NCBI RefSeq assembly: GCF_020715565.1
Contig: NZ_CP085839.1
Location: 620,001 to 684,000, forward strand
Source of the DNA: Nocardioides sp. Kera G14
GTDB lineage: Bacteria > Actinomycetota > Actinomycetes > Propionibacteriales > Nocardioidaceae
Length of the DNA stretch: 64,000 bases
Direction of reading: 5' to 3'
Shown here one piece after another: positions 3,207 to 22,659 of this stretch; the first letter of the stretch is position 1; every line of letters starts with the position of its first letter. The translations under genes and the position numbers were made by a program. The notes under the pieces are model-generated. The model saw only the letters and a list, made by a program, of their open reading frames with translations, had not been told where the DNA came from and made no database searches.

Positions 3207-3700
3207 GACAGCTCCTCCAACAGGTCAGCGGGAACGCGCGCGCGCAAGGACGCGAGCGCACGGGACGCTTGGGACTTCACGGTCCCGACGGCGATCCCGA
3301 GGGTGTCGGCGATCTCGGACTCGGAGAGCCCTTCGTAGTAGCGGAGCACCACCACCGCGCGGGCCCGGGGAGCAAGCCCCTCGACGAGCTCCCAGACGAG
3401 GCGCTGCGTGTCGTCGTACAGGGGTGACGAGATCGTGCCGTCGGGCAGTTCGGACGCGGAGACCTCGCGCCGCCGCCACGCCCGCCGCCACAGCGAGGTG
3501 GTCTCGTTGGTCAACACCCGGCGGAGGAAGGCGTGCGGGTCGTCGACCCGGTCCCAGGCCAGGTAGAGCTTCGCGAGCGAGGTCTGCAGGATGTCCTCGG
3601 CCTCAGTCAGGTCGCCGGTCAGCAGCCAGGCGATCCGCAGCAGGGCGGGCTGGCGGGCGTGCAGGAAGTCGGTGAAGGCGGCATCGCGTGTCTGCCCCAC
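3203..3700 (-). CDS. SigE-family ECF RNA polymerase sigma factor
   Basis: An extracytoplasmic-function sigma factor of about 165 residues. Region 2 is visible as FLHARQPALLRIAWLLTGD followed by AEDILQTSLAKLYLAW; region 4 as GLAPRARAVVVLRYYEGL and SESEIADTLGIAVGTVKSQ, the helix-turn-helix that reads the -35 element. The GTG at 3700 is chosen because AGGAG lies eight bases upstream and the product then starts like other SigE-family members; longer reading frames run into the terminator hairpin at 3748-3781. It is coupled by a four-base overlap to the membrane protein downstream, the usual arrangement for a sigma factor and its regulator. The inducing signal cannot be told. Confidence 0.88.
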   Translation of the reverse strand: MGQTRDAAFTDFLHARQPALLRIAWLLTGDLTEAEDILQTSLAKLYLAWDRVDDPHAFLRRVLTNETTSLWRRAWRRREVSASELPDGTISSPLYDDTQRLVWELVEGLAPRARAVVVLRYYEGLSESEIADTLGIAVGTVKSQASRALASLRARVPADLLEELS

Positions 3701-3747
3701 TCTTCGCACTCCTGCGGTGGTCGAAACGTTCACACACCCTAGACGCG

Positions 3748-3781
3748 GACGGGGACCGGATGGTTGCATCCGGTCCCCGTC
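3748..3781 (-). terminator. Strong terminator between mmpL and sigma gene
   Basis: A perfect 15-base-pair stem (3748-3762 with 3767-3781) closed by a four-base GTTG loop lies 15 bases after the MMPL stop on the minus strand. It separates the exporter from the sigma-factor gene and rules out start codons for the sigma gene upstream of about 3745. Confidence 0.85.
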
Positions 3782-3796
3782 TGAGCTGGTGCCGCG

Positions 3797-6022
3797 TCAG
3801 TGAGTGGCGTGGTCCCTCTCAGGCGCTGCCTCATCGCCATGGCCGGGCCACCACGCGGCGTGCCCGACGAGAGCCGTGATCGCAGGGGTGAAGAAGAGAG
3901 CCATCACGAAGGCGGCCAGCGCGATGCCGAACGAGATCGCGAAACCCAGCGTCACCAGGAACGAGTTGCCACCGAACATCAGCGAGGCGAACGTCCCGGC
4001 GAGGATGAGGCCGGCCGCGGCGACGGTCGGGCCGGCGTGACGCACGGCCCAGGCGGCGGCCTCCCGAGGCCCCTTCCCCTCCTGCGCCTCCTCCCGCAGG
4101 CGGGTCACCATGAGGATGTTGTAGTCCGTGCCGAGGGCGACGACGAAGAGGTAGACGAGCAGCGGCAGCATGAAGATCAACCCGCTCTGACCGCCGATGT
4201 CCTGGAAGGTGAGCGTCGCGGCACCGAGGGTCGCAGCGAAGCCGAGGGCGACCGAGACCATCAGGTACCAGGGCGCCACCAGCGAGCGCAGCACCAGCAT
4301 CAGGATCAGGATGGTGATGGCAGCGGCGACCGGGAAGACCACGAGGTAGTCCCGGTTCATCGCGGACTTGAAGTCGACGAACACGGCGGTGATGCCGGTG
4401 ACCAGCGCCTCCGTGCCCTCCGGGGCGGCGGCGTCGACCTCCGGTCGCAGCGTGTCCTTGACGAACGCCAGCGCGGCATCGGAGGCGGGGTCGTTGTCGA
4501 GGTTCACGGTGACCGGCAGCGTGGGCGTCGACGGGATCTGGCTGAGGGCAGCTGCCGCATCGCCGCCGGTCGCCGCTGCGGCGCCGCCGAGGGAGATGCC
4601 CTTGATCTTCGAGATGGCGCCGTAGAACGACGTGATCTCCGCAGGAGTCAGCGGCTTGTCGTCCTTCGAGTGCAGCACGAGGATGGTCGGCGTCCCGGCG
4701 CCCGCCGAGAAGCCCCGGTCGACCTTGAGCGTGTCGACCTTCGCGGACTCGGTGCTCTGCGACGCGTTGGCGCTGGTGAGGTCGAAGGTCGGGTTGAACC
4801 CCAGAGCGAAGACGGCCAGGACGACGAGGACGCCGCCGCTGACCAGCGCGAAACGGGCCGGGTGCTTGCCGAGGGCATCACCGACACGGCCGAAGCCGGC
4901 CTCCTTGGGCTCGTTTCGCCACTTCTTCGACGGCCAGAACAGCGCTCGACCGAAGACGCTGGTGAGGGCAGGGACGAGCGTCAGGGCCGCGAGCACGGTG
5001 ACGGCCACCGCGATCGCGAGGTTCGGCCCCATCGACTTGAACATGCCGAGGGTCGAGAGCGCGAGGGTCATGAACGCGATGAAGACGGCGCCACCGGCGG
5101 ACGCGGTCGCCTCGCCGGCACGGGTGACGGCGTACTCGACGGCGGACCGGTGCTCGGCCACGCGTGCCGCGCGGTCGGTCGCCGCGACCCGGTGGCTCCG
5201 CATCCGCTCGCGGTAGCGGAAGAGGAAGAACAGGATGTAGTCGGTGCCGATGCCGAAGAGGACGATGTCGATGATGACGGCGGTGGAGTCGTCCTTCTGC
5301 AGCCCGAACAGCTTGGCGGCGTAGTTGTCGAGCCCCGCCGAGAGTGGTGCGAGGAAGAAGATCACGGTGATCAGCGGGAGCAGGGTGACCAGCACACTGC
5401 GGAAGATCACGCCGAGCAGGATGATGAGGAGCAGGACGGTCGCCAGGACGACGAGCTTCTCGGCATTGCCGCCGGACTGCGACTGGTCGTAGTTCTGCGC
5501 CAGCGTGCCGCCGACCTGTGCCCGCAGTCCGGTGCCCTCGGTCGCGTCGTCGAGGTCGCTGCGCAGCGTCTTGACCTGATCCATGTCGGACTGGTCCTGG
5601 CCCGTCACACCCGGCGCGAGATCCAGGGTGACCAGGCCCGCACGCTGCTTCCCGTCACCGGGAAGCTGGACGAGCGGCGTGGCGCCGCTCCCGTTCTTCT
5701 CCGCCGCGCCGAACGCAGAGCCGGGCTTGAGGCCCGCGGCGATCTGCTGGACCTTGGCGAGGTCGGCGGCGCTCAGCGCGCTGCCGTCCTCGTGGTCGAA
5801 GAGGATCGTCGCACCGCCCGAGGCGTTGGCCTCGTCGCCGAAGGCGTCGGCGATCAGCGAGTAGGCGCGGATCGAGTCGTACTTGTCGGGCAGGAAGTCG
5901 GCCTGGTCGGTCGTGGCCTTGATGGACGGGTGGAAGGCCGTGACGAGAACGGTGAGCACCACCCAGGCAGCGATGATGTACCAGGGGCGACGGCTGGCCA
6001 GACGGCCAAGTGCAGCGAACAT
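3797..6022 (-). CDS. MMPL/RND-family transporter
   Basis: A 741-residue inner-membrane protein of the MMPL branch of the RND superfamily, which exports lipids or hydrophobic compounds using the proton gradient. The layout is the family's two-fold repeat: a first membrane helix (RPWYIIAAWVVLTVLV), a large external loop (about residues 35-190), a block of five helices including VIIDIVLFGIGTDYILFFLFRYRER with the G-x-D-Y core, a second external loop, then five more helices containing VVALGTDYNILMVTRLREE. Both G-T-D-Y proton-relay motifs are intact. ATG 6022 is chosen because it starts just before the first helix. The gene stands alone on the minus strand and ends in a strong hairpin. Substrate unknown. 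Confidence 0.9.
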   Translation of the reverse strand: MFAALGRLASRRPWYIIAAWVVLTVLVTAFHPSIKATTDQADFLPDKYDSIRAYSLIADAFGDEANASGGATILFDHEDGSALSAADLAKVQQIAAGLKPGSAFGAAEKNGSGATPLVQLPGDGKQRAGLVTLDLAPGVTGQDQSDMDQVKTLRSDLDDATEGTGLRAQVGGTLAQNYDQSQSGGNAEKLVVLATVLLLIILLGVIFRSVLVTLLPLITVIFFLAPLSAGLDNYAAKLFGLQKDDSTAVIIDIVLFGIGTDYILFFLFRYRERMRSHRVAATDRAARVAEHRSAVEYAVTRAGEATASAGGAVFIAFMTLALSTLGMFKSMGPNLAIAVAVTVLAALTLVPALTSVFGRALFWPSKKWRNEPKEAGFGRVGDALGKHPARFALVSGGVLVVLAVFALGFNPTFDLTSANASQSTESAKVDTLKVDRGFSAGAGTPTILVLHSKDDKPLTPAEITSFYGAISKIKGISLGGAAAATGGDAAAALSQIPSTPTLPVTVNLDNDPASDAALAFVKDTLRPEVDAAAPEGTEALVTGITAVFVDFKSAMNRDYLVVFPVAAAITILILMLVLRSLVAPWYLMVSVALGFAATLGAATLTFQDIGGQSGLIFMLPLLVYLFVVALGTDYNILMVTRLREEAQEGKGPREAAAWAVRHAGPTVAAAGLILAGTFASLMFGGNSFLVTLGFAISFGIALAAFVMALFFTPAITALVGHAAWWPGHGDEAAPERDHATH

Positions 6023-6085
6023 GACCCTGAAACTACCGGGCCCCACCGACCACAAGCCGTGACATTCGGCATGGCCGGGCACGAC

Positions 6086-7306
6086 TCAGGACGAAATCAG
6101 GGTCATCCCTGAGAAGGGCTTCACCAACAGGCAGCGACCTTCGCCGGCGATCCGCGTCATCACGATCGTGCCCTCGTTGGGACCGGTGAGCGAGAGGGAG
6201 CGCCGCAGCGCCTCCGGCACGATCGAGACGCCGCGCTTCTTGATCGTCAGTCGCCCGATCCCACGCTCACGCAGGGCCGCCTTCAGTGCACGCTCGCGAT
6301 ACGGCAGCTCCTCCAGCACCTGGTAACCCGTCGCGAACGGCGTGTGGAACGAGGCGTCGGAGGTGACGTAGGCGATGTGCTCGTCGAGCAGCCCGCCGTC
6401 CACGCCGGCCGCCACCGCCGTCACCAGACCGGCCCGGATCACCGCCCCGTCGGGCTCATAGAGGAAGTCCCCCAGAGGTCGTACGGCGTCAGCCCGCCCC
6501 TCCACGTCCTCGGGGTCGATCGGCGAGTCCTCCTCGGTGATCGTCGCCAGGCCGCCGTCACCGATCACGGTCGCCCGTCGGCGTACGGTGGCGAGACGTC
6601 CGGACCAGAGCGCGGCCTCCTTCACGTCACCGTGGTCGGAGACCCACTCGCCCTCGACCCCGGCAGGGATCAGGGAGTGGTCGATCCCGGGCGCGACCTT
6701 CACGCACGCGTCGCGGTTGAAGAGCGTCGACACCCAGTCCCATGGCGGCGTCCAGCCTTCCGTGGCGAGTTCGCGCCCGCGCGCTGCGTTGTTCCGACGC
6801 CGCGCCGGGTCGGCGAAGGCGACGTCGAAGGGGGAGTGGTCGACCGTGGTGGCGTCCGCCTGCTGGACGGCACCACCGAGCCCGAGCGCGGTGAGGTTGG
6901 CGGAGGCCACCGCCACGCGTTCGGGATCCAAGTCGACACCGGCCGCCGTGGTGCCGGCGTGCGACAGGGCGATCAGGTCACCGCCGATGCCGCAGCCCAG
7001 GTCGATGACCGACGCGGCGCCGAAGGCCTGCAGTCGCGCCGCGCGGTGCGTCGCGACCGAGAGCCGCGTCGCCTGTTCGAGTCCGTCGGACGTGAAGTAC
7101 ATCGAGTCCGCGAGAGCCCCGAACTTGGCGCGACCACGGGAGCGCAGCTCCACCTGCGACATCGCCGCGGCGACGTACGCCGGCTCACAGTCCTTGCGCA
7201 GGAGCGTCTGCGCCTGCAGCGGATCCATCCCCGACAGCGACGAAGCCCGGTCCAGCAGCGCCTGCCCAGAAGGAGTCAGCAGCCAGCCGAAGGCATCCAG
7301 ATCCAC
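6086..7306 (-). CDS. Class I SAM methyltransferase, THUMP-like domain
   Basis: A 406-residue protein with a Rossmann-type SAM-binding core in the middle: [15 protein letters not shown] (motif I), [12 protein letters not shown] (acidic end of strand 2) and FADPARR (motif IV). The C-terminal third, ending [20 protein letters not shown], matches the THUMP-like domain found in actinobacterial proteins encoded near groES. RNA is the likely substrate class, but the target is unknown. Start is GTG 7306, and a TAGGTT hexamer lies six bases upstream, suggesting a leaderless transcript. The gene is divergent from groES. Confidence 0.82.
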
Positions 7307-7511: not shown

Positions 7512-9433
<1,922 letters not shown>

Positions 9434-17492: not shown

Positions 17493-17559
17493 TACGGCCG
17501 GGGGTGCTGACGGAAACCTCCGCCCGCTGAACTTCTTCCGACCCGCCCGAGACGGCGGG

Positions 17560-17670
17560 GCGCCCCTAGGGTTCCGTTCCTGCTCCGGCAGGAGGTCTGG
17601 TCCGAGAGGGGCAGGCGCCGACACGAGGACGTGGCGACGCTCCACGGCGGGACAAAAGCCCGGGAGGCCT
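17560..17670 (+). ncRNA. Guanidine-I (ykkC) riboswitch
   Basis: Three conserved blocks of the guanidine-I class appear in order: CTAGGGTTCCG (17566-17576), CTGGTCCGAGAG (17597-17608) and ACGGCGGGACAAAAGCCCGG (about 17644-17663). This aptamer binds guanidinium and normally switches expression on. Downstream genes encode a transporter and guanidine-breakdown enzymes, as expected for the class. The expression platform follows at 17714-17730. Confidence 0.95.
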
Positions 17671-17739: not shown

Positions 17740-19314
17740 ATGTCAGTCGACTACGACCACACCAGCGCACGCGATCTCTCCACGTTCGGCTATCCGCAGG
17801 AGCTGGTCCGCAAGGTGGGCAGCTATGCCTCCTTCGCGGCCGGGTTCTCCTTCGTGTCGATCATGACCACCGTCTTCCAGCTCTTCGGGCTGGGCTACTC
17901 CTTCGGCGGCACGGCGTTCTTCTGGACCTGGCCGGCCGTCCTCGTCGGCCAGCTCCTGGTAGCGCTCTGCTTCGCCGAGCTCGCGGCCCGCTACCCGATC
18001 TCGGGTGCGATCTACCAGTGGTCGCGCCGCATGGGCGGCTCCGTCGTCGGCTGGTTCGCCGGCTGGACGATGGTCATCGCCCAGACCATCACCATCGCCG
18101 CGGCGGCGATCGCCCTCCAGGTGGTGCTGCCGATCGTCTGGAGCGGCTTCCAGATCATCGGCACCGACACCTCGGTCGCCAGCCGTGACGGTGCCGCCAA
18201 CGCCATCCTGCTCGGCCTGGCCCTGCTCGTGGTGACGACCCTGATCAACGCCTTCAGCGTGAAGCTGACCGCGCGGGTCACGAGCATCGGCGTCACCTGC
18301 GAGCTGATCGGCGTCGCGCTCCTCGTCGTGCTGCTCTTCGGCCACGCCGAGCGCGGCCCGTCGGTGATCGTGCACCACACCAATCTCGACGGCTCGACGG
18401 GATACGTCGTCCCGTTGTTGGTCTCCTCACTGATGGCCGCCTACGTGCTCGTCGGGTTCGACAGTGCCGGTGAGCTCGCCGAGGAGACACACGCCCCACG
18501 ACGTACGACCCCGCGCACGATCATCCGGGCTGTGCTCGCCTCGGGCGTCGGCGGCGCCTTCCTCATCGTCGCGGCCCTGATGGCCGCGCCGAGCCTCGGC
18601 GTCGACGACCTCGGCCTCGGTGGCCTGCCCTACGTGATCACCAGCCAGCTCGGCACCTTCTGGGGCAAGCTGCTCCTGCTGGACGTGGCGTTCGCCGTCA
18701 CCGTCTGCACGCTCGCGATCCAGACGGCCGCGGCGCGGATGTTCTTCTCCATGGCCCGCGACCACGTGCTGCCCTTCTCCAAGCAGCTCTCGAGGGTCTC
18801 GCCGAAGACCGAGGTGCCGGTGCTCGCCACGGTCGTCCCCGGCGTCGGCGCCGCGCTGTTCCTGGTGGTCAACATCGGCAACGCGGGCCTCTTCCTGGCC
18901 CTGTCGAGCGTCTGCATCATGCTGCTCTACATCGCCTACCTGCTGGTGACGGTGCCGCTGCTCAAGGAGCGGCTCGCCGGTCGCTTCCCGACCGGCGGCG
19001 TCGATGAGACGGGCCGGCCGCTCTTCTCCCTGGGCCGCCTCGGCGTGCCGATCAACATCGTGGCGGTGCTCTTCCAGCTCGTCATGGCGTGGAACCTCGG
19101 CTGGCCGAGGGCTGAGGTCTACGACCCGTACGGCGCCGGCTGGGCCGTCCATTACCTGCCGATCCTCGTGCTGGTCGTGACCTACGGCGTGGGCTACGTC
19201 GCCTACCGGGCGCAGAAGCCGGCCTACGAGGCGGCGATCGGGCTGACGCCGGCAGCGTCGTCCCGCGCGGTCGGCGTCGACGGCATCGACGGCCTCGAGG
19301 GAGAGCCGGCGTGA
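17740..19314 (+). CDS. APC-superfamily permease, probable guanidine transporter
   Basis: A 524-residue integral membrane protein with about 12 helices and APC features: SYASFAAGFSFVSIMTTVFQLF in helix 1, the conserved GGTAFFWTWPAVLVGQLLVALCFAELAARYPISGAIYQWS segment spanning helices 2-3, and HAPRRTTPRTIIRAVL in the cytoplasmic loop. APC permeases usually carry amino acids or amines. Here the gene directly follows the guanidine-I riboswitch and overlaps the first breakdown gene by four bases, so guanidine (or a related urea-type compound) is the likely cargo. The polypeptide itself does not prove specificity. Confidence 0.85.
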   Translation: MSVDYDHTSARDLSTFGYPQELVRKVGSYASFAAGFSFVSIMTTVFQLFGLGYSFGGTAFFWTWPAVLVGQLLVALCFAELAARYPISGAIYQWSRRMGGSVVGWFAGWTMVIAQTITIAAAAIALQVVLPIVWSGFQIIGTDTSVASRDGAANAILLGLALLVVTTLINAFSVKLTARVTSIGVTCELIGVALLVVLLFGHAERGPSVIVHHTNLDGSTGYVVPLLVSSLMAAYVLVGFDSAGELAEETHAPRRTTPRTIIRAVLASGVGGAFLIVAALMAAPSLGVDDLGLGGLPYVITSQLGTFWGKLLLLDVAFAVTVCTLAIQTAAARMFFSMARDHVLPFSKQLSRVSPKTEVPVLATVVPGVGAALFLVVNIGNAGLFLALSSVCIMLLYIAYLLVTVPLLKERLAGRFPTGGVDETGRPLFSLGRLGVPINIVAVLFQLVMAWNLGWPRAEVYDPYGAGWAVHYLPILVLVVTYGVGYVAYRAQKPAYEAAIGLTPAASSRAVGVDGIDGLEGEPA

Positions 19315-20030
19315 CCCTCTACAGCCACGACCTTCCCGGAGGGGCGGCCTGGTCGGCGCCCCTCCGGGCCGGTCGGACCCTCACCCTCACCGCCCTGGGC
19401 GACGGCGCCAACGTGTCGCTGCTGCTCTTCAACGCCGCCGGAACCTTCGGGGCCGACCGCATGAACGTCCCGGACACCCTCAAGGCGCAGATGTCGGCGC
19501 GCATCATGGCGCCGATGGTGCTCATGTCCGACCTCGGCCTCGCGCTCGCCTCGGTCACGGCCTCCAGCCTCGACTGGCATGACTGCCTCGGCGGCTTCGG
19601 CCACGACGTCCACCTCGACGCGGGCTCGTCGAGCTACCACGCCGACCGCAACGGTTGGCGTCGCAGCGGGCGCACCGGCCTGGTCAGCGAGCTCACCAAG
19701 AACGGCCTCGACGAGCGCGATCTGCACGCACCGGTCAACCTCTTCAGCCGTGTCGCGATCGACGAGAAGGCCGGTCTGGGCTGGGCTTCCGACCACGCGC
19801 ACGCCGGCGACACCGTCACGCTGCGCACCGAGCTCGACGTCCTCGTCGTCCTCTCCACCGCACCCCATCCGCTCGACACGAGTCCGCTCGACACGGTCGG
19901 CTACGCGCCGGCCGGGGTGCGACTCGATGTCGCCCTCGCCGAGGCCGTCGACCCGGCCACGGACGCGTCCTGGCAGTTCCGCGACGAGAGCGCCCGCGCC
20001 CTCGAGATGAGCAGGAGGCTCCTCGCATGA
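19311..20030 (+). CDS. Urea-amidolyase-associated protein UAAP1 (DUF1989; carboxyguanidine deiminase subunit)
   Basis: A 239-residue DUF1989 protein. GDGANVSLLLFNAAGTFGADRMNVPDTLKAQ is the UAAP1 hallmark, and DWHDCLGGFGHD carries His and Cys residues suited to metal binding. In guanidine-degrading bacteria the UAAP1/UAAP2 pair forms carboxyguanidine deiminase (CgdAB), which turns carboxyguanidine into allophanate and ammonia. GTG 19311 overlaps the transporter stop, and the stop overlaps UAAP2, so all are translationally coupled. Function is assigned from family and context. Confidence 0.88.
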   Translation: MTLYSHDLPGGAAWSAPLRAGRTLTLTALGDGANVSLLLFNAAGTFGADRMNVPDTLKAQMSARIMAPMVLMSDLGLALASVTASSLDWHDCLGGFGHDVHLDAGSSSYHADRNGWRRSGRTGLVSELTKNGLDERDLHAPVNLFSRVAIDEKAGLGWASDHAHAGDTVTLRTELDVLVVLSTAPHPLDTSPLDTVGYAPAGVRLDVALAEAVDPATDASWQFRDESARALEMSRRLLA

Positions 20031-20668
20031 GCACCGCCGTCAGCACCGCGCTCAGCACTGACACCGCGCCGGCGTACGACCGCGTCGTCGACGACGGCGA
20101 CGGCGACCTCGTCCTCGTCCCGGCCGGTGGTCGGCTGCGGATCGTCGACCTCGAGGGCAACCAGGCCGCTGACACGCTCGTCTACGACGCGGCCGACGTG
20201 CGCAACAAGTACTCCGCCTTCGACACCATCCGCGAGCAGGGCGCCGTCTACCTGACGACCGGCTCCCGGCTGCTCTCCACCCGGCTCGACGAACTCGCCG
20301 TGATCACCGACGACACCGTCGGCCGGCACGACACGATCGGCGGCGCGTGTGCCCAGGAGAGCAACGTCATCCGCTACGGCATTCACACCCGCCACCAGCA
20401 CGCCTGCCGGCAGACCTTCCTCGCCTACGGCGCAAGGGCGGGCATCGGCCCGCGCGAGCTCGGCCACAACATCAACTTCTTCATGAACGTGCCCGTCTCG
20501 CCCGACGGCGACCTGCACTTCGACGACGGCCTGTCGGCGCCCGGGCGGTACGTCGAGCTGACCGCGAGCCGTGACATCTACGTCCTGCTCTCCAACTGTC
20601 CGCAGCTCAACAACCCCTGCAACGGCTGGAACCCCACCCCCGTGCAGCTCCTGGGGTGGTGGTCATGA
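20027..20668 (+). CDS. Urea-amidolyase-associated protein UAAP2 (DUF1989; carboxyguanidine deiminase subunit)
   Basis: A 213-residue DUF1989 protein paralogous to UAAP1. GGRLRIVDLEGNQAADTLVYDA and YLTTGSRLLSTR match UAAP2. Candidate metal ligands include the cysteine in IGGACAQESN and the histidines in YGIHTRHQHACRQTF; a late NCPQLNNPCNGWNPTPVQ segment ends the protein, as in the family. It should pair with UAAP1 as carboxyguanidine deiminase. ATG 20027 overlaps the UAAP1 stop, and its own stop overlaps the carboxylase gene by four bases. Confidence 0.88.
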   Translation: MSTAVSTALSTDTAPAYDRVVDDGDGDLVLVPAGGRLRIVDLEGNQAADTLVYDAADVRNKYSAFDTIREQGAVYLTTGSRLLSTRLDELAVITDDTVGRHDTIGGACAQESNVIRYGIHTRHQHACRQTFLAYGARAGIGPRELGHNINFFMNVPVSPDGDLHFDDGLSAPGRYVELTASRDIYVLLSNCPQLNNPCNGWNPTPVQLLGWWS

Positions 20669-22659
20669 GCATCCGCGTGCTCGACCCGGGGGCGCAGACG
20701 ACCGTGCAGGACGTCCGCGGCCGACAGGGCTACTGGGACGTTGGGGTGCCTCCGTCGGGGGCTTTCGACGAGCTCACCTTCGCCCTCGTCTCCGCCGGCG
20801 TGGGGAACCCCGACGGTCTCGCCGGACTCGAGTGCGTCCTTCGCGGTCCAGTGCTGGCCTTCGACGAGGACCGGCTGGTCTGCCTCGGCGGCGGGCTCAC
20901 GTCGGCCACCGTCGACGACCGGCCGCTCCCCGTCGGGCAGGTCCGCCGGGTCCGCGCCGGCCAGACGCTCGACCTCGGTCCGGTCGACGGCCCCGGCATG
21001 CGCGGCTATCTCGCGGTCCGTGGTGGCCTCGACGTGCCGCGCGTACTGGGCAGCCGGTCGACCTTCATCCTCGGCGGCTTCGGTGGGTACGACGGCCGCC
21101 CGCTCGCCGCGGGCGACGTCCTGCCGCTCGGCCGACTCGAGAACCTGCTCGCGCCGGTCGAGGTCGCCGAGGTGCTGCCCGCGCTCACGCAAGAGTGGGA
21201 GCTGCGCGTCATCCCCGGCCCGCACGGTGCGCCCGACTACCTCACCCACGCCGGTGTGGAGGAGCTCTTCGCGGTCACGTGGTCCGTCGACCACCGCGCC
21301 GACCGTACGGGTGTGCGCCTCGTCGGGCCGACCCCACAGTGGTCGCGCGGCGACGGTGGCGAGGCGGGCATCCACCCCTCCAACCTGCACGACTCGGCCT
21401 ACCCGGTCGGCGGCATCATGCTCTCGGGTGACACCCCGGTGATCGTCGGCAAGGACGGCCCATCGCTCGGTGGCTTCGTCGTGCCGGCCGTCGTCATCGG
21501 CGCCGACCGCTGGAAGCTCGGCCAGCTCCGTCCGGGTGACACGGTGCGGCTGACCCCCGTCTCCCCGGCGGCGGCGGCAAACGCGATCGCCGCGCAGCGC
21601 GACCTCGTCGAGGGTCTGCACCCGGCGGCCGGCGTGACGGCACCGTCGCCTCGTCGTCGCGAGCCGGCCGCCGACGTACCGACGACGGCCGAGCGCCCGC
21701 CGCTGCTCGCGGCCGCGGGGACGATGGGCAGCGCCCCGGCGTTCACGATCCGCGCCTCAGGTGACCGGCACGTCCTGGTCGAGGCCGGCCCGGCCGAGCT
21801 CGACCTCACCGTGCGCGTCTGGATCCACCTCCTCGCCGAGCGGCTCCGTGCCCACCGGCCCGTCGGCGTCGTCGAGATCGTCGAGGGCGTGCGCTCGCTG
21901 CTGATCGCGCTCGACGACGACCGGCTCATACCCGCCGGGTTGGCCGCCCACCTCGCCGACCTGGCGGCGGACCTAGACGACCCGGCGACCGTCGATCTGC
22001 CGGTGCGCGAGGTCGAGCTGCCGATCGCCTTCGACCACCCGGAGGCGCACGAGGCGATGCGGCGCTACCAGAGCGTCAACCCGACGGCGCCGTGGAGCCC
22101 GGACAACGTCGAGTTCATCCGCCGGGTCAACGACCTCACCGACCGGGCCGACGTCTTCGACGTCGTCGCCCGGGCGACCTATCTCGTGGTCGGCCTGGGC
22201 GACGTCTACCTCGGCGCCCCGGTGGCAGTGCCGATCGACCCGCGCGACCGGCTCGTCACCACCAAGTACAACCCCGCCCGCACCTGGACCCCGCAGAACG
22301 CCGTCGGCATCGGAGGCATCTACCTCTGCGTCTACGGGATGGAGGGCCCGGGCGGCTACCAGCTCGTCGGTCGCACGGTGCCGGTCTGGCGCCTCCTGGC
22401 CGACGACCCGCACCGGGACCCGCAGCCCTGGCTGCTGCGCCAGTTCGACCGGCTTCGGTTCGTGCCGGTGACCGCCGAGGAGCTGGCCGACCAGCGTGCC
22501 GACATCCGCTCCGGGAAGGCCGACCTCGTGACCAGGCCCGCGACCTTCTCGATCAGCGAGGTGCGCGCCATCGAGCTCGCCGCCTCCGACGAGATTGCGG
22601 CCGTCCGTGCGACCCGCCGGGCGGCCTTCGACGCAGAGAAGACGAGGTGGGTCTCATGA
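20665..22659 (+). CDS. Urea/guanidine carboxylase, carboxyltransferase half only
   Basis: A 664-residue protein made only of the carboxyltransferase region of urea/guanidine carboxylase: an AHS2 (KipA-like) domain from the N-terminus (LDPGAQTTVQDVRGRQGYWD, PPSGAFDELTF) and an AHS1 (KipI-like) domain from about residue 360 (FTIRASGDRHVLVEAGP). The late segments YNPARTWTPQNAVGIGGIYL and GMEGPGGYQLVGRTVPVW are specific to the carboxylase rather than to 5-oxoprolinase subunits. The usual ~1200-residue enzyme also has an N-terminal biotin carboxylase and a C-terminal biotinyl domain; both are absent, and no candidate lies in the window. Overlaps of four bases with both neighbours leave no room for a lost domain. 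Confidence 0.87.
   Translation: MSIRVLDPGAQTTVQDVRGRQGYWDVGVPPSGAFDELTFALVSAGVGNPDGLAGLECVLRGPVLAFDEDRLVCLGGGLTSATVDDRPLPVGQVRRVRAGQTLDLGPVDGPGMRGYLAVRGGLDVPRVLGSRSTFILGGFGGYDGRPLAAGDVLPLGRLENLLAPVEVAEVLPALTQEWELRVIPGPHGAPDYLTHAGVEELFAVTWSVDHRADRTGVRLVGPTPQWSRGDGGEAGIHPSNLHDSAYPVGGIMLSGDTPVIVGKDGPSLGGFVVPAVVIGADRWKLGQLRPGDTVRLTPVSPAAAANAIAAQRDLVEGLHPAAGVTAPSPRRREPAADVPTTAERPPLLAAAGTMGSAPAFTIRASGDRHVLVEAGPAELDLTVRVWIHLLAERLRAHRPVGVVEIVEGVRSLLIALDDDRLIPAGLAAHLADLAADLDDPATVDLPVREVELPIAFDHPEAHEAMRRYQSVNPTAPWSPDNVEFIRRVNDLTDRADVFDVVARATYLVVGLGDVYLGAPVAVPIDPRDRLVTTKYNPARTWTPQNAVGIGGIYLCVYGMEGPGGYQLVGRTVPVWRLLADDPHRDPQPWLLRQFDRLRFVPVTAEELADQRADIRSGKADLVTRPATFSISEVRAIELAASDEIAAVRATRRAAFDAEKTRWVS

Follow-up and report, generated by a model that had tools for sequence, protein, structure and literature searches.

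How could a carboxylase without a biotin domain work in an operon for guanidine breakdown? The question is raised by a gene at 20665–22659 of a 64,000-nucleotide stretch of the Nocardioides sp. Kera G14 genome (contig NZ_CP085839.1, positions 620001–684000; hereafter the window). Its product is a carboxyltransferase (CT) that has neither a biotin carboxylase (BC) domain nor a biotin carboxyl carrier protein (BCCP) domain, and it is encoded among guanidine-pathway genes behind a guanidine-I riboswitch. We favour, with moderate confidence, the view that it is a stand-alone CT subunit for guanidine breakdown, which would be charged in trans by a housekeeping BC-BCCP alpha subunit and would have an altered substrate recognition; its partner, reaction and substrate are what we infer below.

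Architecture, operon and conservation

The gene runs from an ATG at 20665 to a stop codon at 22657–22659 and encodes 664 amino acids, in which the only Pfam domains are CT_A_B (residues 26–297) and CT_C_D (residues 361–582). Against TIGR02712, the urea/guanidine carboxylase model, the protein matched positions 448–1107 of 1201 (774.5 bits, E = 1.8 × 10−232), as does a CT domain of the urea carboxylase type. The score falls under the whole-protein cut-off of 1303.85, and the parts of the model left uncovered are the positions of BC (N-terminal) and BCCP (C-terminal) in full-length enzymes. No BC domain was found in the chain by Pfam or TIGR02712 matches, and no BCCP domain by Pfam or a genome scan with PF00364. 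The protein is CT-only, as a preliminary description of the locus had claimed; known single-chain enzymes with BC, CT and BCCP have about 1200 residues, as was also stated there. Cut-offs for the 5-oxoprolinase subunits were missed (PxpC, 148.2 against 500 bits; PxpB, 41.7 against 145.55). The predicted structure was middling (predicted local distance difference test 77.5, predicted template modelling score 0.80), with low stretches that include residues 234–242, 512–517 and 542–552.

The operon consists, in order, of the guanidine-I riboswitch, a permease, UAAP1, UAAP2, the CT protein and allophanate hydrolase (Table 1). Successive genes overlap by four bases (ATGA or GTGA) at permease–UAAP1 (19311), UAAP1–UAAP2 (20027), UAAP2–CT (20665) and CT–allophanate hydrolase (22656), so that the position first reported for the CT gene, under the riboswitch and between UAAP2 and allophanate hydrolase, was confirmed in both coordinates and overlaps. 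Riboswitch segments CUAGGGUUCCG, GUCUGGUCCGAGAG and CACGG..GGGA.AAAAGCCCGGGAG agree with the guanidine-I consensus, and UAAP2 retains Cys108, 127, 191 and 198. The riboswitch, UAAP1/2 and allophanate hydrolase expected of a guanidine assimilation operon are all present, with UAAP1 and the permease scoring below their NCBIfam cut-offs.

The same arrangement recurs in relatives. The nearest named relatives are Nocardioides, and of 215 genomes in this genus, the source included, 12 carry a CT-only gene; the other copies were 69–77% identical, in frames of 694–926 amino acids, and one (G357) was in two pieces. Sixteen of the same 215 genomes had a 48–55% match in a frame of at least 1192 amino acids, and three had weak matches of 39–40% only. 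Among Kribbella-type genomes, which belong to one genus with genomes of 7–10 Mb and are taken for Kribbella from its named relatives, the gene occurred in 24 of 38 (70–73% identity). A survey of 391 genomes of the order gave at least 31 with a CT-only match and 14 with a full-length match over the cut-off; 31 is a lower bound because two candidates were scored per genome, and G357 is missing from this CT-only set. Of 7992 candidates scored in a search of 5.8 billion proteins, 3567 reached E ≤ 10−60, and the best 120 listed matches, the query included, all carried the two CT domains only; this search left out proteins longer than 1162 residues, so the full-length form is not countable there. 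Named loci with the CT-only operon came from Nocardioides, Kribbella, Actinokineospora, Amycolatopsis, Kutzneria and Frankiales bins. The riboswitch-linked CT-only clade to which the source gene belongs is here called clade A, and the ratio of nonsynonymous to synonymous substitution rates (dN/dS) was 0.10–0.32 in nine of nine clade A pairs, which indicates that the CT gene is under purifying selection.

With known single-chain enzymes of about 1200 residues in mind, one might take the short form for an artefact, produced by faulty assembly or by the decay of a gene whose flanking domains are already gone. However, the genome is a single contig of 3,469,009 bases with 99.49% completeness, the gene overlaps both neighbours, and the form recurs in the genus and in Kribbella-type genomes with low dN/dS. 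The artefact reading is already refuted by this conservation, and we give it practically no weight. The split architecture in close relatives, which the preliminary description had proposed to look for, is thus real, and the assembly error it named as a danger has fallen away.

Table 1. Features of the operon, codons of the key residues, and the candidate alpha subunit. Positions are those of the window unless marked otherwise.
Feature	Position	Strand	Remarks
Guanidine-I riboswitch aptamer (RF00442)	17555..17668	+	75.3 bits; gathering score 63
APC-type permease, 'urea carboxylase system' family	17740..19314	+	TIGR03428, 669.4 bits (below cut-off 740.45); PF13520
UAAP1 / CgdA-like (DUF1989)	19311..20030	+	GTG start; TIGR03425, 202.4 bits (just below cut-off 205.95); PF09347
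UAAP2 / CgdB-like (DUF1989)	20027..20668	+	TIGR03424, 285.0 bits (barely above cut-off 284.7)
CT-only carboxyltransferase, 664 amino acids	20665..22659	+	CT_A_B and CT_C_D
Met252 codon	21418..21420	+	K. lactis 1330 (Asp in guanidine, Asn in urea carboxylases)
Asp513 codon	22201..22203	+	K. lactis Asp1584, kept
Lys534 codon	22264..22266	+	K. lactis Lys1605, proposed general base, kept
Allophanate hydrolase, 538 amino acids	22656..24272	+	TIGR02713, 619.1 bits (above cut-off 511.05); AH_C domain
AccA3-like BC-BCCP alpha subunit, 593 amino acids	genome 754967–756748 (L153:9520–11301)	-	BC and Biotin_lipoyl domains

A conserved accessory gene was also considered and rejected. Open reading frames (ORFs) of the window between 11 and 32 kb were compared with ten clade A loci at E ≤ 10−12, and apart from three stray single-locus matches everything that matched fell inside the operon, on either strand and with antisense shadow frames counted. 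A 430-amino-acid amidase-family ORF at one locus (L074) matched three other loci, where the matched protein is perhaps allophanate hydrolase.

Substrate pocket and partner enzymes

In the excerpts of the literature on which we rely here and below, an Asp marks guanidine carboxylases and an Asn urea carboxylases (PMC12186494), the distinguishing residue is 1330 of the Kluyveromyces lactis enzyme, with Asp at 1584 also required for guanidine carboxylase (PMC11410670), and Lys1605 is the proposed general base (PMC5770610). The CT protein could be aligned to the K. lactis structure (3va7) without gaps around positions 1330 and 1584. Asp513 stands where a guanidine carboxylase has Asp1584; Met252 stands at 1330, where the excerpts call for Asp in guanidine carboxylases and Asn in urea carboxylases. 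Among 137 aligned CT regions, position 1330 was Met in 26/26 clade A proteins, Asp in 15/15 other CT-only proteins, and Asp (90) or Asn (6) in 96 full-length enzymes, and both Asp at 1584 and Lys at 1605 were present in all 137. This alignment drops L010 and L039 (both the source gene again), L064 (a second copy of L017) and L072 (a contig-end fragment); its G-handle (surveyed-genome) and named loci may share species, and L170 is absent from the residue count. Met at the 1330 equivalent was also found in the query and in 119/119 homologues among the matches listed in the protein-database search. Open PMC literature, as far as excerpts go, yielded no mention of a guanidine or urea carboxylase without BC or of Met at 1330, the original work on that residue lying outside its scope.

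Clade A also fixes Asp209, Arg211 and Glu407 (26/26 each), where the 111 other rows have mostly His (107), Asn (104) and Pro (109), and 21 of its columns are fixed differently from Asp-type enzymes, those with Asp at 1330. The 15 Asp-type CT-only rows differ from the 90 full-length Asp rows in one column of 664 (85% threshold), which is expected if they perform the same carboxybiotin chemistry in trans. Proteins from an Acidimicrobiales query (L095, P0124–P0243) had Asp at 1330 in 80/80 CT-only and 40/40 longer members. In the CT-only members of that group, position 209 is Gln in 64 and His in 16, and position 211 is His in 65 and Asn in 15; the longer ones have His at 209 (40/40) and Asn at 211 (37/40).

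The other enzymes of the pathway changed to different degrees between clade A and the remaining operons. UAAP2 had no fixed differences and allophanate hydrolase two, while UAAP1 had three along with several looser changes, in a weak alignment; the permease was 57–61% identical to the permeases of six Asp-type CT-only loci. On balance, the chemistry downstream of the carboxylase looks to have been kept.

Linkage to the riboswitch was close within the clade. A guanidine-I riboswitch at gathering score was found at 10/10 clade A loci scanned besides the window, and a riboswitch was present in 24/24 Kribbella-type genomes with the CT gene against 1/14 without it (Fisher P = 2.6 × 10−9, a value that ignores shared descent); two of these 25 genomes (G057, G108) have sub-gathering matches only. 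It was also found at six of six hand-picked full-length Asp-type loci. No guanidine riboswitch reached gathering score at any of 16 Asp-type CT-only loci scanned, which include L170, of untyped residue, and L168, with only about 2.7 kb upstream of the UAAP frame. The Nocardia-type Asp loci L158–L168, likewise without an Rfam guanidine riboswitch at gathering score, had a permease in 6 of 11.

A trans-charged CT subunit could also act on a guanidine-like compound that is substituted or less basic, guanidine itself serving as inducer only. The loss of the guanidine-marking Asp throughout the clade, the 21 refixed columns and the divergent UAAP1 speak for such a change of substrate. The guanidine-I consensus of the riboswitch core, the near absence of fixed change in UAAP2 and allophanate hydrolase, and the resemblance of the permease to that of Asp-type loci speak against it, and we consider it unlikely. 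The preliminary description treated the protein as a guanidine carboxylase, but the marking residue is Met, so that its suggestion of a changed pathway stays partly open.

Possible sources of carboxybiotin

Scans of the whole genome found PF02785 (BC) in three genes and PF00364 in six places, none of them in the window, in agreement with the earlier report of no BC or biotin-attachment match there. The three BC genes encode the AccA3-like alpha subunit, a 674-amino-acid alpha subunit and pyruvate carboxylase. The AccA3-like gene lies between Maf and a SpoIID/LytB-domain gene, and a scan of these two neighbours showed no CT gene. The 674-amino-acid subunit (L154) overlaps its own carboxyltransferase gene and lies amid acyl-CoA dehydrogenase genes. 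None of the three was identified as a dedicated BC partner. The genome also contains an 80-amino-acid frame for a small free BCCP-like protein (L156, about 9001–9201, minus strand).

A dedicated partner was not seen in other clade A genomes either. A BC query found no BC frame at clade A loci in flanks of up to 10 kb (named loci and L169) or about 1.5 kb (other G-handle loci). Three BC genes over the cut-off were counted in 22/24 Kribbella-type genomes with the CT gene and in 14/14 without it. G049 (with the gene) and G027 (without) have a fourth BC only below the cut-off, and the apparent fourth in G002 is only part of a single gene. A dedicated partner was therefore rejected, the BC counts being alike with and without the CT gene. 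A BC frame of about 590–680 amino acids is present in each of the 38 genomes (a class assigned by length only, one frame being cut by a contig end), and every CT-only genome searched has at least one BC (24/24 Kribbella-type, 9/9 from named loci, and the source).

A missing BC gene at a second riboswitch was also rejected, since the source genome has a single guanidine-I site at E ≤ 0.001. Of the free BC-BCCP gene near a second riboswitch that had been proposed as a check, the gene exists and the second riboswitch does not, and the same result removes the proposal of a full-length carboxylase at another riboswitch-controlled locus. Four Kribbella-type genomes (G013, G057, G075 and G093; loci L196–L199) have weaker second guanidine-I-like sites. 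The one at L197 precedes an MFS-transporter-like ORF, a composition filter gave no clear downstream ORF at the other three, and no BC gene lies within 230 kb of these sites on the same contig.

A precedent for the arrangement is found in PDB 9yx5, judged here by title and chain names only. Its title describes a long chain acyl-CoA carboxylase complex of Mycobacterium smegmatis with MSMEG_0435-MSMEG_0436 bound, and its chains are AccA3 and 'Allophanate hydrolase subunit 2' and '1'. The AccA3-like protein of the source genome matched its AccA3 with 848.5 bits over residues 3–593. AccA3 is described, in the excerpt available, as an alpha subunit common to several carboxylases (PMC11001197). Of the three options first offered for the missing domains, an acyl-CoA carboxylase alpha subunit that supplies them in trans fits best: the genome has an AccA3-like subunit, the search for a dedicated BC came up empty, and in 9yx5 AccA3 occurs together with a related split CT.

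The donor could instead be the 674-amino-acid subunit, pyruvate carboxylase, or the small BCCP with some BC, all of which are present in the genome. We regard this as very unlikely, since the first is accompanied by an overlapping carboxyltransferase gene and the second is already a complete enzyme; a BC frame of about 590–680 amino acids recurs in all 38 Kribbella-type genomes, and in 9yx5 it is AccA3 that partners the CT pair.

Another carboxyl or phosphoryl donor has been supposed for PxpB/PxpC of 5-oxoprolinase, and the CT fold here might likewise work without biotin. The lack of BC or BCCP in the operon and in the surroundings of clade A, and the existence of homologous PxpB/PxpC chains without a biotin domain, would suit such an enzyme. 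Yet the carboxylase CT motifs and the base Lys are kept in all 137 rows, BC is present in every CT-only genome searched, and in 9yx5 AccA3 accompanies even a pair of the PxpB/PxpC type. We therefore think biotin independence improbable. The source genome has a PxpC-like gene of its own (L157:8977–11157, minus strand) beside PxpB- and PxpA-like frames, the former matched to solved PxpB-type chains and the latter assigned by eye, and 9yx5 raises the question whether such pairs also use AccA3.

Under supply in trans, guanidine would switch the operon on through the riboswitch, whose aptamer is seen in the sequence. A housekeeping alpha subunit, most likely the AccA3-like one, would carboxylate its own biotin with ATP and present the carboxybiotin to the CT protein, which would transfer the carboxyl group to guanidine or a close derivative. 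UAAP1/2 would deiminate the product to allophanate and allophanate hydrolase would convert this to ammonia and CO2, as in the known pathway, whose genes are present. With Met252, the substrate would be held otherwise than in known guanidine carboxylases; clade-fixed acids, for example Asp209 or Glu407, may help, although this is speculative.

This model is supported by the exact coincidence of the TIGR02712 match with the CT part, the invariant equivalents of Asp1584 and Lys1605, and the constancy of UAAP2 and, nearly, of allophanate hydrolase. It is further supported by the lack of BC frames at clade A loci, the equal BC counts of Kribbella-type genomes, the riboswitch linkage and the dN/dS values. 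The repeated change of architecture in the tree, the near identity of Asp-type CT-only and full-length Asp rows by fixed columns, and 9yx5 with its match to the AccA3-like protein also count in its favour.

Several observations weigh against it. By alignment, Met252 fails the published residue rule for guanidine carboxylases. UAAP2 position 144, 99% Asp elsewhere, is variable in clade A, and clade A UAAP1 is without residues that are 92–98% conserved elsewhere: D28 is replaced by A and D85 by S in 96% of the clade, R20 by A in 21/26 and R77 by L in 18/26. Two Kribbella-type genomes (G069, G087), out of the 24 that have the CT gene, carry a fourth BC. The Gemmatimonadota CT-only genome has a single BC in a 462-amino-acid frame, and a fused alpha subunit was not seen there. 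At one Asp-type CT-only locus, L164, a frame with both BC and BCCP (3383–6787, plus strand), as large as a pyruvate carboxylase, lies some 3 kb upstream of the CT-only gene; it is probably a chance neighbour, and nothing like it was seen at the other ten Nocardia-type G-handle loci or at L170. Finally, the CT pair in 9yx5 is of the PxpB/PxpC type, and K. lactis urea carboxylase is closer to the CT protein than this pair is; nor is binding a proof that a carboxyl group is transferred. The entry 9yx5 is a precedent for the arrangement and not for the enzyme at 20665–22659.

Descent, significance and known systems

A tree of 66 rows was built from 14/26 clade A, 15/15 other CT-only, 6/6 Asn and 30/90 full-length Asp rows with one outgroup. 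Clade A was monophyletic (Shimodaira–Hasegawa-like approximate likelihood ratio test (SH-aLRT) 98). The Nocardia-type CT-only group formed a separate clade (SH-aLRT 99) nested among actinobacterial full-length enzymes, and the Gemmatimonadota CT-only row (L151) paired with a full-length Phenylobacterium row (98) among full-length enzymes of other phyla. A single clade of all 29 CT-only rows was rejected (approximately unbiased test, P = 1.5 × 10−18). The architecture thus changed repeatedly, and this topology needs at least three changes, splits or fusions. The biotin domains were probably lost more than once; the PxpCB outgroup, with a branch length of 10, places the root too far away to order the architectures. 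In one genome (G276, locus L027) the BC part (model 1–521) and the CT-BCCP part (522–1200) lie in adjacent frames, through a frameshift or a second kind of split.

As described (PMC12186494, PMC11410670), the guanidine pathway employs a biotin-containing carboxylase, and a single residue, Asp or Asn, tells its substrate; the riboswitch-linked clade lacks the biotin domains and has neither of these residues. Should the trans model be true, a housekeeping carboxylase alpha subunit would have a further role in nitrogen assimilation; otherwise the enzyme would be biotin-independent or differently specific. The published residue rule misses Met-type operons either way, and some such proteins are already labelled 'urea carboxylase' in the sources. 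We raise, more tentatively than the model itself, the idea that this clade may be a third, Met-type specificity class, a plug-in CT on housekeeping AccA3 by which guanidine nitrogen assimilation would share the biotin machinery of acyl-CoA carboxylation.

Among known systems, the single-chain guanidine carboxylases (BC-CT-BCCP, Asp1330) are alike in their operon, with UAAP1/2, allophanate hydrolase and, at the six loci picked, the riboswitch, and their CT regions are about 44–51% identical; unlike them, the CT protein has no BC or BCCP and has Met for Asp. K. lactis urea carboxylase/urea amidolyase (PDB 3va7, 5i8i) has BC, BCCP and Asn1330, whereas the CT protein lacks both domains and has Met. 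Asp-type CT-only proteins of Nocardia-like Actinomycetes, Acidimicrobiia and one Gemmatimonadota bin are likewise CT-only and accompanied by UAAP genes, often with allophanate hydrolase, but differ in their Asp at 1330 (15/15; 80/80) and in having no guanidine riboswitch at gathering score at the loci scanned (16/16). PxpB/PxpC (5-oxoprolinase subunits; MSMEG_0435-0436, YbgJK) have the same two domains without biotin domains, which in the CT protein are fused in one chain; the guanidine operon has no PxpA, and separate PxpC/PxpB/PxpA-like frames lie elsewhere in the genome. In AccA3-based carboxylases of Actinomycetota one BC-BCCP alpha subunit serves several CT subunits. There, as here, the CT chain is separate, and the source genome has a free BC-BCCP alpha subunit of 593 amino acids; the usual AccD beta subunits have a fold unlike that of the AHS-type CT.

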